Assembly: GCF_001435755.1 (NCBI RefSeq)
Contig: NZ_AZFI01000003.1
Location: forward strand, 1-39,450
Length of the DNA: 39,450 bases
Direction of reading: 5' to 3'
From: Ligilactobacillus acidipiscis DSM 15836
GTDB lineage: Bacteria; Bacillota; Bacilli; Lactobacillales; Lactobacillaceae
Shown here: one piece after another, positions 4,732 through 37,770 of the stretch
Layout: each line of letters begins with the position of its first letter
How positions within the stretch are numbered: position 1 is the first letter of the stretch
Notes under the pieces: model-generated
Seen by the model: the letters and a program-made list of their open reading frames with translations, nothing else
The model's database searches: none
Told to the model about the DNA's origin: nothing
Translations under genes and position numbers: made by a program

Positions 4732-7527
4732 CTAAATGTTTTTAAAAAAATTTTGTAAATTATCACCTAGTTCGGCTGTTTTTCGCCTTTCTAGTTTAAC
4801 GCCTGCAGGAAATGATTTTTCAAAAACGACCCCATATTTTTTAGTCAAGATCCGTGGATCAAGTAAAACAAACGCGCCAATATCTGTCTTTGTTCTGATC
4901 AACCGTCCAAAACCCTGATTTAATTTGATCACTGCTTCAGGTAAAGCTATTGTTGAAAAAGGATTTTCTCCTAGTTTTTCTGCTTTGTGGTACCTGGCCT
5001 GATTAATTACTGAATCAACTGCTTGGAAAGGTAAGCGCGTTACGACCAGCAACTCCAGATCATCATGCGGCAAATCGACACCTTCCCAAAAACTACCGGT
5101 CCCTAGTAAAATAGCCTGATGTTCATGATCCATTAAAAAGCGTTTTTTAATTTTTTCTACCCCACCAGAGATTCCCTGAGCCAAAACATTCTTGGTCCTA
5201 GTCAGCCCCTTTTGCTGTAACAACTGATAAACATCAGCAATTGTCTGAAGCGAATTAAACAAGATCAAAGTCTGTCGTGGTACCTTACTACATATCTCAG
5301 AAATAGTGTCTGCCAGATATTTACAGTATTCTTGCTGATCGACGACCCCAACATCAGGAGCATCCATAGCAACCATAGCTGCGACCTGCTTTCGATAATC
5401 AAAAGATGAATCATACTGCGAGATCTGTGTCTTTGCAGGTAGATCAAGATTAGTTGGAATAAAGTTTTTGATTTCTGGTAATGAAAGCTCTGCTCCTGTT
5501 AATAATGTATGCTGAAAAGATTCATAAATATGATTTTTCAAAAAGTTCTTGGTCTCCATTAAACCACTATGGATCCGCAAGTGAGCGCCTTTCACATTGG
5601 ACTTAGTCAACCAGATTATTTGACTCTCAAATAATTCTTCCAACTGATCCAAATCGAATAATTTCCAATTTTTTAGCTCCTTAGTCAAAGAGCGAGCTAG
5701 TGTGAAATAATCATTCAACAATTTATTTTGAACCGAGCTCAAGTGCAATGTCGTACTTTGTGTCATAAATTTCTTATATAGCTCACGATCAACCTGGACT
5801 AATTTCCTATAAGCACTAGCTACTGTTACAAACTCAGCTAAGTGTCCCTTGATAAAACCACGTATTTTTTTTGGGCGCAACAATTGTTCATAGTACTCAC
5901 TTTGACTAGCATTACCACCGACAAAAGTCGCAGCAAGATCATTTCTTAATTGAGGTACCCGCGAATCGATCACCCTAATAACTTGCAACAAATGTTTAAA
6001 CTCCGAGCTAGTTATAAAACCCGACCCAACAAGATCGATGAAGGAATACGATTCATGTGATCTAATTTTGACAAGTAGTGAATCTGCTAAGATCTTGATC
6101 TCATCAAAATCTAAAGTTTTCCTATTATTTTTAATTGTCATTGGTGCCAAGTGCTGTGCCTCATCAACGACTAATAAGCTGTTTGGCCCACTCAATTCCT
6201 CAATATGGCTGCTTAAATACGCATGATTAGTCAAAACAAAATCAGCATTTTTTTCAGCCAGTTTCTTTCTTCTCAGAAAATCGACGGAATAAAAAGGGTT
6301 GTCGCTATCCAATTCTTCAACGCCACGATGGTGGATCTCGTTAAACAATGGATCTTGTAATTTAGTCAAATGCAACTCATCAAAATCACCAGTTTTTGTT
6401 TCCATCAGCCAAACCATGATCCTCATTTGTAATAGATTTGTGTGAGAATTTTGCGTGCGTTTCAAAGATTGTGCAAAACGAGCCAAGTCGATGAAATGGT
6501 AGTTACCCTTTAAAGAAACTACAGAGCACCCAAATGGCAGTATTTTTTTTAAAAGAGAAAACGCATTTTCTTGGAGTTGAGTTTGTAAGACATTGGTTGC
6601 AGTGCTGATCACTACCTGCTTTCCCTGTCCAGTTTGATAAGCAGCGGGAAACAAATAACCTAATGTCTTACCAGCCCCTGTTGGTGCATCGATCACCCGT
6701 ACCAAATCTGAGCCGTTAAAAAATTCAAACGTTTCATCCATCATTTTTACTTGTTGCAAACGAACATCGATCAGGCCTGTAAAAAGCTTTTCTTTTTCGA
6801 CTAATTCAAATGGATAATCAAGTGGAGCCAGAGTGTCTTTTGAAAAAATCGGTCTTTGAATGATCAACCCGGCAACAGACATTAAGTCAGCGGGCAGTTT
6901 AGTTTCTTGTTTACTTTTTTGCTCATACGCTTCTTTAAAGCAATCAACAGTATCTAACTCTAACTGCCTTCCTCTAAGACTTAATTCTTCTAATAATGTT
7001 AATGGAAAATCAGCGATCCGTTCCCGGAGTTTAATAAAAAGCGCTGCCGTTGTTCGCGCGTCGCTTGCTGCATTATGCGGTTGCTCATGTGTCAAAGACA
7101 AAAAGTGACTGACATCTGATAATCTATACGATGGTAAAGTCGGTAAAACGATTTGTGCTAATTGAACTGTGTCGATCCCTTTAAGATCTAGCTCTGGATA
7201 ACCTACACGTACCAATTCACTATTCAAAAAATTATAATCAAAGGCAATATTATGTGCGACAAAGGTCGTATTTTGTAACAAAGAATAAATGGTCCCTGCC
7301 ATTTCTTCAAAGCTTGGGGCCTTCTTGACATCTTTATCACTGATATTGGTTAATTGCGAAATCTCTGGGGGGATCGGTTGTTTAGGATCGATCAGCGTTG
7401 AAAACTCGTTAACGATCCGTTTATGCTGTACGAAAGTACAACTAAATTGAATGATTCGATTAGTCCCATTGATGGCAGTTCCCGTAGTTTCAAGGTCCAC
7501 CACGGCATATGTTTTTCGACTACTCAT
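4732..7527 (-). CDS. dinG: DinG-family exonuclease/helicase-like ATPase
   Basis: A 931-residue Firmicutes-type DinG. Residues 1-170 form a DEDDh 3'-5' exonuclease domain like DnaQ (AVVDLETTG, VAHNIAFDYNFL, HNAASDARTTAALF). The rest is a superfamily 2 helicase of the XPD/DinG type, with Walker A APTGAGKT near 285, the DEAH-type box VVDEAQHL near 455 and motif VI QGFGRLIRT near 880. The cysteines that bind 4Fe-4S in E. coli DinG are not apparent; after LKGNYHF no cysteine cluster follows, consistent with iron-sulfur-free Firmicutes homologues. It begins the dinG-to-nth cluster; ypmA, present in B. subtilis, is missing. Confidence 0.95.
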   Translation of the reverse strand: MSSRKTYAVVDLETTGTAINGTNRIIQFSCTFVQHKRIVNEFSTLIDPKQPIPPEISQLTNISDKDVKKAPSFEEMAGTIYSLLQNTTFVAHNIAFDYNFLNSELVRVGYPELDLKGIDTVQLAQIVLPTLPSYRLSDVSHFLSLTHEQPHNAASDARTTAALFIKLRERIADFPLTLLEELSLRGRQLELDTVDCFKEAYEQKSKQETKLPADLMSVAGLIIQRPIFSKDTLAPLDYPFELVEKEKLFTGLIDVRLQQVKMMDETFEFFNGSDLVRVIDAPTGAGKTLGYLFPAAYQTGQGKQVVISTATNVLQTQLQENAFSLLKKILPFGCSVVSLKGNYHFIDLARFAQSLKRTQNSHTNLLQMRIMVWLMETKTGDFDELHLTKLQDPLFNEIHHRGVEELDSDNPFYSVDFLRRKKLAEKNADFVLTNHAYLSSHIEELSGPNSLLVVDEAQHLAPMTIKNNRKTLDFDEIKILADSLLVKIRSHESYSFIDLVGSGFITSSEFKHLLQVIRVIDSRVPQLRNDLAATFVGGNASQSEYYEQLLRPKKIRGFIKGHLAEFVTVASAYRKLVQVDRELYKKFMTQSTTLHLSSVQNKLLNDYFTLARSLTKELKNWKLFDLDQLEELFESQIIWLTKSNVKGAHLRIHSGLMETKNFLKNHIYESFQHTLLTGAELSLPEIKNFIPTNLDLPAKTQISQYDSSFDYRKQVAAMVAMDAPDVGVVDQQEYCKYLADTISEICSKVPRQTLILFNSLQTIADVYQLLQQKGLTRTKNVLAQGISGGVEKIKKRFLMDHEHQAILLGTGSFWEGVDLPHDDLELLVVTRLPFQAVDSVINQARYHKAEKLGENPFSTIALPEAVIKLNQGFGRLIRTKTDIGAFVLLDPRILTKKYGVVFEKSFPAGVKLERRKTAELGDNLQNFFKNI

Positions 7528-7547
7528 TTTTTCACCACTTCTACAAA

Positions 7548-7576
7548 TTGATCAAATCAAAAGTGTATATTACAAT
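7548..7576 (+). promoter_or_regulatory. Predicted promoter of a small transcript between dinG and mvk
   Basis: TTGATC (7548-7553) and TACAAT (7571-7576) are separated by exactly 17 bases. It faces away from dinG and predicts a start near 7583. It overlaps the opposing dinG promoter region, so the two could interfere. Confidence 0.4.
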
Positions 7577-7581
7577 CGTTG

Positions 7582-7610
7582 ATATTACCAGTATTGGCGC
7601 TTTTTGTCCA
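7582..7610 (-). promoter_or_regulatory. Predicted dinG promoter
   Basis: Read on the minus strand, TGGACA (7610-7605) and TAATAT (7587-7582) are separated by 17 bases, placing the start about 50 bases before the dinG ATG. No LexA box is visible here, so SOS control of dinG is not supported. Confidence 0.5.
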
Positions 7611-7665
7611 CTTCTACTAGTTACACTAAACACTTATTCGTGCTGTTCGAATAAGTTGTTTTTTT
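7583..7665 (+). ncRNA. Candidate small RNA between dinG and mvk
   Basis: A unit of about 80 bases runs from a predicted start near 7583 to an intrinsic terminator: ACTTATTCG (7632-7640) pairs with CGAATAAGT (7648-7656) and is followed by TGTTTTTTTG. No plus-strand gene precedes the terminator, no ATG-initiated ORF lies inside, and mvk has its own promoter further on. A small RNA, or a premature-termination leader, is the simplest reading. This is an inference from signals only. Confidence 0.4.
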
Positions 7666-7693
7666 GAAAATACGATTCGACTAAGAATTTTCA

Positions 7694-7722
7694 TTGTCTG
7701 ATTTGGTGCTAAAATGTATAAT
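7694..7722 (+). promoter_or_regulatory. Predicted promoter of the mevalonate operon
   Basis: TTGTCT (7694-7699) and a perfect TATAAT (7717-7722) are 17 bases apart, predicting a start near 7729 and a leader of about 85 bases before mvk. Confidence 0.65.
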
Positions 7723-7814
7723 TATGTTGCTTAGCAATTAAATCTAATCACGGAGTCCAATGAAAAGGACCAAAAATTTGCTACAAATAACAGTGAGAGG
7801 AAGTTTAATTAACC

Positions 7815-8771
7815 ATGAAACAAAAAGCAGACGGTATCGGCCATAGTCACGCTAAAATAATTTTGATAGGTGAACATTCGGTCGTATACGGACAGCCGGC
7901 AATTGCTCTTCCTTTGACAACGATTCAAACAGAAGCAAAATTGTTTTTTACAAATGATGACCAACAACTTATACAAAGTTCGTATTTTGATGGACCTGTT
8001 AACGAGATGCCTCCCGCTATGTTGGGAATATCACACTTGCTAAAAAATATCTTAGCACAGGCACATCAAGAAAAAAGTAGTTTTATTTTGAAAATAAGAA
8101 GTCAATTACCTGCTGAACGCGGCATGGGATCTTCGGCGGCGGTCGCGATCTCCATCATTCGCTGCTTATATGATGCATTTGGCCTTAAGTTAACACATAG
8201 CCAAACACTACGTCTAGCAAACATCTCCGAAACTGACACCCATAAAAATCCTAGTGGGCTGGATGCTGCTACTGCTGCCAGTGAAAATCCGATCTGGCTG
8301 ATCAGAGACCAGGAGCTAGTGCCATTACCTATCACCATGAATGCTTACATTTTGATTTGCGACAGTGGGGTCAAGGGGCAGACGGGCAAAGCAATCAAGA
8401 TCGTGCAAAACAATCTGACTAATGAACCGCAAAAAACTAAGGCCCACCTGGCCCACTTAGGTCGATTGTCAATTGAGGTCAGGGAACAATTAGCAAAAAA
8501 TGACGTTTTTGGTTTAGGCAGATCCTTAAATTCAGCGCAAAAGCATTTGAATGCGATCGGCGTCAGCAGCCAAAACTTGGAAGATCTGATCCACCTTGCT
8601 TTACAAAATGGCTCACTTGGCAGTAAATTAACTGGCGGTGGTCGTGGCGGTTGTTTCATCAATTTGACCAAAAATCGGGCAACTGCTGAAAAGTTAGCAG
8701 CTGTTTTACAAAAGCACGGTGTTACAAAAAGTTGGATCCAACCACTGTCATCTGAAATTGGAGGTTTATAA
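7815..8771 (+). CDS. mvk: Mevalonate kinase
   Basis: Phosphorylates mevalonate to 5-phosphomevalonate, the first step of the lower mevalonate pathway. The 318 residues show the GHMP kinase signature: an N-terminal AKIILIGEHSVVYG (about 14-27), the ATP loop ERGMGSSAAVAIS (about 101-113) and the C-terminal KLTGGGRGGCF motif. SDTHKNPSG-like sequence (about 145) corresponds to the substrate-binding Asp/Asn region. The ATG follows GAGAGGAAG. Its TAA overlaps the mvaD ATG by one base (TAATG), so translation is probably coupled. First gene of mvk-mvaD-pmk-fni. Confidence 0.96.
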   Translation: MKQKADGIGHSHAKIILIGEHSVVYGQPAIALPLTTIQTEAKLFFTNDDQQLIQSSYFDGPVNEMPPAMLGISHLLKNILAQAHQEKSSFILKIRSQLPAERGMGSSAAVAISIIRCLYDAFGLKLTHSQTLRLANISETDTHKNPSGLDAATAASENPIWLIRDQELVPLPITMNAYILICDSGVKGQTGKAIKIVQNNLTNEPQKTKAHLAHLGRLSIEVREQLAKNDVFGLGRSLNSAQKHLNAIGVSSQNLEDLIHLALQNGSLGSKLTGGGRGGCFINLTKNRATAEKLAAVLQKHGVTKSWIQPLSSEIGGL

Positions 8772-37396: not shown

Positions 37397-37511
37397 CAAT
37401 GTGCACCTCCTTGTAATTGACTTAGACTCGCCGTAATGTAGTGACTCAATTTGCCTGAGTACTTAAAAACTTAAAACGCGCGGTTGTAGTTGTGACATGC
37501 ACAAATACAAC
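37397..37511 (-). promoter_or_regulatory. rplU leader, probable L21 leader-type element
   Basis: The predicted leader of about 115 bases begins with a strong hairpin: GTTGTA and TTGTG (37511-37490 side) pair with CACAA and TACAAC around a five-base loop (37483-37511). L21 leaders are known in Bacillus and relatives. I cannot verify a covariance match, so the family assignment is tentative. Confidence 0.5.
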
Positions 37512-37589: not shown

Positions 37590-37619
37590 TTTGACATAAT
37601 CTACATATCTAGCCTATAA
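37590..37619 (+). promoter_or_regulatory. tRNA-Arg promoter
   Basis: TTGACA (37590-37595) and TATAAT (37614-37619) are both perfect, with an 18-base spacer. The tRNA begins 15 bases after the -10. It is divergent from the rplU promoter. Confidence 0.85.
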
Positions 37620-37633
37620 TATACCTTGTTGTT

Positions 37634-37707
37634 GGTTCGGTAGCTCAGCTGGATAGAGCATCCGCCTTCTAAGCGGATTGTCGAGAGTTCGAATCTCTCC
37701 CGAATCA
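37634..37707 (+). tRNA. tRNA-Arg (anticodon UCU)
   Basis: A 74-base cloverleaf. The acceptor arms GGTTCGG and CCGAATC pair fully, with discriminator A at 37707. The anticodon stem TCCGC/GCGGA encloses CTTCTAA, so the anticodon is TCT and it reads AGA/AGG. The T arm GAGAG-TTCGAAT-CTCTC is standard. CCA is not encoded. It has its own promoter and terminator. The 3' end of such tRNA genes is a common integration site for mobile elements, and the DNA beyond it is decayed. Confidence 0.97.
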
Positions 37708-37740
37708 TTATATATCAAATTAGAACGAATCAAAAATGTA

Positions 37741-37770
37741 AGAATGCCTTTATACCGGCGTTCTTTTTTT
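37741..37770 (+). terminator. Terminator after tRNA-Arg
   Basis: AGAATGCC (37741-37748) pairs with GGCGTTCT (37757-37764) with a G-U pair, followed by TTTTTT. Confidence 0.85.

Follow-up and report, generated by a model that had tools for sequence, protein, structure and literature searches.

A promoter match and a terminator-like hairpin in the divergent dinG–mvk gap of Ligilactobacillus acidipiscis

Introduction

Bidirectional promoters with a non-coding divergent RNA have reportedly been described by Warman et al. in 2021. In one study (PMC10268837), a bidirectional promoter is a pair of starts on opposite strands 7–25 bp apart, most commonly 18 bp, and such promoters are given as frequent and as often having a non-coding divergent RNA. 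For intergenic small RNAs, the SIPHT description (PMC2527527) gives as candidate rule a Rho-independent terminator located at most 35 bp from conserved intergenic sequence.

The locus described here lies in the gap between a dinG-type gene and the mevalonate kinase gene (mvk) of Ligilactobacillus acidipiscis DSM 15836, whose genome is available as 2.33 Mb in 457 contigs. The whole stretch of DNA that was analysed, 39,450 nucleotides long, is referred to as the window. As in bidirectional promoters, the locus contains two promoter matches of opposite direction on the same DNA, with starts predicted from the -10 positions at about 7575 (minus strand) and about 7583 (plus strand), some 8 bp apart, and an mRNA is predicted in one direction and a non-coding RNA in the other. 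It is unlike the commonest layout, where the starts are 18 bp apart and the -10 hexamers coincide (at the locus the starts are predicted), and its plus-strand promoter is lost in the related species G008. With SIPHT-type small RNAs it shares a conserved intergenic stretch, a terminator within 35 bp and the lack of an ORF, but its conservation is due to the dinG promoter, while the terminator and most of the RNA body are unconserved. Like an intrinsic (Rho-independent) terminator, it has a T-tract directly after a stem-loop (7632–7665); however, there is no upstream gene on the plus strand and the stem is poor in G-C pairs.

Results

Architecture of the gap

The features of the locus, with promoters, hairpin and T-tract identified from the letters, are the following:

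4732–7527, minus strand: dinG-type gene (DnaQ-family exonuclease / DinG-family helicase), 931 aa; NCBIfam TIGR01407, 673 bits, cutoff 547.7
7548–7576, plus strand: candidate promoter TTGATC-17-TACAAT (9/12); start predicted at ~7583
7582–7610, minus strand: dinG promoter TGGACA-17-TAATAT, with TG before the -10; start predicted at ~7575
7632–7656, plus strand: terminator-like hairpin ACTTATTCG-7 nt-CGAATAAGT, with 9-bp arms and a 7-nt loop
7657–7665, plus strand: T-tract TGTTTTTTT after the stem (the hairpin is followed by TGTTTTTTTG), 7 T in 8
7694–7722, plus strand: mvk promoter TTGTCT-17-TATAAT (10/12), both hexamers identical in all five aligned species
7815–8771, plus strand: mvk; NCBIfam TIGR00549, 244.7 bits, cutoff 163.05

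The dinG (minus strand) and mvk (plus strand) genes are divergent, with 287 bases between them. The mvk gene is the first of mvk-mvaD-pmk-fni, the genes that follow it matching TIGR01240, TIGR01220 and TIGR02151. Its protein shares 81% identity with its counterparts in Ligilactobacillus pobuzihii and Candidatus L. excrementavium, and 71% with the one in L. pabuli.

The anatomy given in the preliminary description, a promoter with a 17-base spacer facing a terminator, nothing coding between the two and a separate mvk promoter beyond, is borne out by the letters. No ORF of at least 20 aa, which might have been a hidden small gene, is located wholly within 7583–7665. A 52-aa plus-strand ORF (7509–7667) enters from upstream and spans this segment, and two minus-strand ORFs, of 30 and 22 aa, reach into it at its ends. 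The overlap of the plus-strand match (7548–7576) with the dinG promoter (7610–7582 in its own direction) was also correctly noted, and competition is possible there between polymerases, which would shut one another out of the two sites. The plus-strand match has no TG before its -10. A further plus-strand promoter-like match is present to its left, at 7398–7427.

Antisense control of the dinG mRNA was considered and ruled out: the two RNAs are predicted to run apart from starts at about 7575 and about 7583, with no bases in common, so no antisense pairing with the dinG mRNA is expected. A second, weak plus-strand hairpin (CGTTGATATT/AGTATTGGCG, -4.9 kcal/mol) lies over the dinG promoter and was found, under a loose rule, in the window, pobuzihii and excrementavium; it is taken as a by-product of the dinG promoter letters. 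In the dinG leader, positions 7548–7555 form the palindrome TTGATCAA. Excrementavium has a longer, 12-bp version of it (ATTTGATCAAAT) and pabuli one of 14 bp (AAATTGATCAATTT); in pobuzihii it is broken, and G008 has lost it.

Strength and setting of the terminator-like hairpin

At 7632–7665, a G+C-containing stem is followed by a T-tract, as in an intrinsic terminator. The stem has nine pairs, three of them G-C, and an energy of -8.4 to -9 kcal/mol. It was compared with 55 terminator-like hairpins following ORFs in a sample of 380,790 bases, made up of 81,340 bases from the own genome, 160,000 from G017 (taken as pobuzihii), 100,000 from G007 (taken as pabuli) and the window, in which ORFs were assigned by a simple longest-ORF rule, with no gene finder. 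The median stability of these hairpins is -13.8 kcal/mol; 45 of the 55 equal or exceed -8.4 kcal/mol and 10 are weaker. A T-tract level of 7 T in 8 is attained by 9 of the 55. The terminator had been called strong, which goes too far: the stem has only three G-C pairs, and 45 of 55 hairpins are at least as stable. Its T-tract is among the better ones.

In the same sample, with genes assigned by the same longest-ORF rule, terminator-like hairpins with a stem of at least 8 on either strand are present in 2 of 27 divergent gaps (the hairpin at 7632–7656 being one), 9 of 24 convergent gaps and 30 of 116 tandem gaps. Compared with shuffles, folding is clearly better for the stem alone (z -4.17, matched by none of 200) and somewhat better for the full 83-nt RNA (z -1.88, matched by 10 of 200).

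Chance level of the promoter and the hairpin

Chance levels were estimated from 1000 dinucleotide-preserving shuffles of the gap, using the plus strand only. A promoter match at the observed cutoff occurs in 436 of them, and the match at 7548–7576 is thus at chance level. Any terminator-like hairpin is present in 52, and a stem of at least 9 plus a T-tail in 7; the hairpin with its T-tract is locally above chance and not readily random. The combination of a promoter 10–130 bases upstream of a terminator arises in 5 of the 1000.

When both strands of the whole window are considered, five promoter-terminator pairs are observed. Twenty shuffles contain 4.15 on average, with 0 to 8 pairs each and at least five in 9 of the 20. 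The count is at shuffle level, and therefore one pair somewhere in a 39-kb stretch is to be expected. One of the five pairs (37590–37765) brackets a tRNA at 37634–37707 and is probably real; another (8599–8700) is located within the mvk ORF. Near this tRNA gene, at 37414–37495 on the minus strand, lies a ribosomal protein L21 leader (RF00559, 61.7 bits).

Conservation between species

Some part of the region is matched in 22 of 41 genomes, the own genome included. The collections contain one genome per species, and conservation counts are therefore between species. Starts of dinG and mvk could be paired by simple protein motifs in 10 species, own included; the remaining fetched loci, where one of the motifs fell beyond the locus or went unrecognised, were left out. 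The gap was aligned for the five nearest species: the window, pobuzihii, excrementavium, pabuli and G008. As pobuzihii and excrementavium are mutually close, the four relatives amount to nearer three independent ones.

Mean identity to the window over these four relatives is 0.96 for the dinG -10, 0.96 for its -35 and 0.82 for its spacer, 1.0 between the two opposite -10 hexamers and 1.0 for both mvk hexamers. It falls to 0.40 for 7611–7631, 0.45 for the hairpin and 0.47 for 7666–7693. In the alignment, the dinG and mvk promoters thus appear as sharp conservation footprints, and the hairpin stretch is poorly alignable. The T-tract reaches 0.69 because pobuzihii and excrementavium have T-runs there, without a terminator-like stem directly before them.

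None of the four nearest species has a plus-strand terminator between the dinG and mvk promoters, even though the rule applied to the relatives was more permissive on stem and loop than the one that detects 7632–7656. Conservation of the hairpin in related species, proposed earlier as a check, is therefore absent; the preliminary description holds for the letters and anatomy, not for a strong terminator or a conserved hairpin. G008 has an unlike inverted repeat at about the position of the hairpin, without a T-tract. Of the more distant species, G024 contains a 14-bp inverted repeat (TAAAGTAATAGTAA-CTAG-TTACTATTACTTTA) with the tail TGCTATTTTT in its dinG–mvk gap, G019 and G006 have 5-bp stems on the plus strand of the gap, and no plus-strand terminator was found in the gap of G010 and G012. 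By eye, none of the structures of these five species resembles the hairpin at 7632–7656.

The plus-strand promoter is retained in part. It scores 9/12 in two of the four nearest species, pabuli (spacer 17) and excrementavium (spacer 16), as in the window; in pobuzihii it reads TTAATC-16-TACAAT, 8/12 by direct count, and in G008 it is lost, with TACAAC and no -35 (1/6 identical). The -10 TACAAT is conserved because it is within the dinG start region, kept for dinG itself. The -35 TTGATC is identical (6/6 each) in pabuli and excrementavium, and in pabuli the spacer beside it has diverged (10/17 identical). Retention of the -35 despite this divergence mildly favours a plus-strand promoter and is the main reason against dismissing it.

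The start region of mvk seems to be duplicated in pobuzihii and excrementavium. In pobuzihii (L033), TTGCCTGACAATAAATTT directly follows the mvk -10, and a second copy, adjoining a second promoter-like match, is located 66 bases upstream; excrementavium (L032) has a diverged form of this pair. Right after the mvk -10, at 7727–7737, all five aligned species have TTGC, four variable bases and CAA, which could be a short hairpin or a regulator site where the mevalonate mRNA begins.

Copies elsewhere, families and literature

A single copy of the hairpin at 7632–7656 was found in its own genome (exact 8-bp arms, spacers 3–15). A repeated element or mobile hairpin is unsupported, given this single copy and the lack of an exact match in viral contigs. 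When 7560–7735 was compared with 26 genomes of the genus, own included, the best outside match at the 3' arm and T-tract was in G006 (E 0.0036). This match (L079, 598–633) resembles window positions 7651–7684, with 83% identity over about 34 bases, and is at another genomic place; its T-tract follows unlike short arms (CAACT-ATT-AGTTG), and some likeness runs on downstream. Contig C117 of the own genome (L078) has AAGTTGTTTTTTTG in common with the T-tract side, with the arms absent.

A regulon sharing the dinG-promoter block was considered and rejected, as the 17-mer CGTTGATATTACCAGTA has nine genomic sites (one exact, eight with three mismatches) against nine for the reversed control, which is chance. 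In G016 (L077), taken as excrementavium, a block like the CGTTGATATTACCAGTA region is located, by eye, in apparent protein-coding sequence. Rfam has no family in the gap at gathering score, nor up to E 5, and among the literature matches listed there is no title on the dinG–mvk gap locus.

Discussion

The gap is probably an ordinary divergent one, in which a plus-strand transcript, if any, is a weak by-product stopped before mvk by a lineage-specific terminator. The conserved promoter letters suggest that dinG would be transcribed leftward from 7610–7582 and the mevalonate genes rightward from 7694–7722. The plus-strand match at 7548–7576 would be largely a by-product, its -10 being part of the conserved region in which dinG starts; it might at most give a weak rightward non-coding RNA of about 80 nt or add to background rightward transcription. 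Such background RNA could come from the overlapping site or from further left, where the promoter-like match at 7398–7427 is located. The hairpin with its T-tract, either gained in this lineage or retained only here, would stop rightward RNA ahead of the mvk promoter. Transcription, termination and an insulating role of the hairpin are what we infer from the letters. Counting against an ordinary gap, the hairpin may serve a specific transcript, because its stem and T-tail arise in only 7 of 1000 gap shuffles and stems of at least 8 are uncommon in divergent gaps.

That transcript might be a small RNA specific to this lineage, about 80 nt long (7583–7665), running from the 7548 promoter to the hairpin and acting on other mRNAs, which we consider unlikely. 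A 9/12 promoter suitably spaced from a terminator (5 of 1000 gap shuffles) and the z-score of the stem (-4.17) argue for it. The SIPHT-style rule, judged by coordinates, agrees too, with 17 bases from the end of the conserved block (about 7614) to the stem (7632); however, this block is the dinG promoter, and hairpin conservation, a supporting feature for such RNAs, is found in 0 of the 4 nearest species. The modest fold of the whole 83-nt RNA, the lack of an Rfam match up to E 5 and the chance level of promoter-terminator pairs across the window also argue against a small RNA.

Less probable still is that polymerase at the plus-strand promoter blocks the dinG promoter and lowers dinG expression, with the terminator merely disposing of the RNA. 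The two sites overlap, each predicted start being in or beside the -10 of the other, and both TTGATC and TACAAT are retained in pabuli and excrementavium. However, the dinG start region accounts for the conservation of TACAAT, the plus-strand promoter is weak, with no TG before its -10, and G008 keeps its dinG promoter (10/12) though the plus-strand promoter is gone. A decoy transcript interfering with the dinG promoter had been suggested earlier; the overlap of sites on which this was based is present, but interference would come from two polymerases competing for a single DNA segment, for which no RNA and no terminator would be needed. Both a small RNA and a decoy transcript are possible, and hairpin conservation lends no support to either.

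A young, species-specific small RNA whose promoter stands face to face with that of dinG, so that the two are expressed in a mutually exclusive manner and the repair helicase is coupled to a new RNA regulator, is a distinctly improbable elaboration. Finally, we give very little credit to the inverted repeat being operator DNA to which a regulator of dinG or mvk binds, instead of a terminator: its perfect 9-bp arms end 37 bases before the mvk -35 and other inverted repeats occur in the same gap of G008 and G024, but the arms of those are unrelated in letters, the nearest relatives do not share the repeat, the genome contains a single copy and a T-tract directly follows it.

If the gap is indeed an ordinary divergent one, a promoter and a terminator in a single genome argue only weakly for a small RNA, and a few sister species suffice to part the real promoters, those of dinG and mvk, from the turnover between them. 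If the segment is transcribed, it would be a small and clean case of a young non-coding RNA arising from an overlapping divergent promoter.
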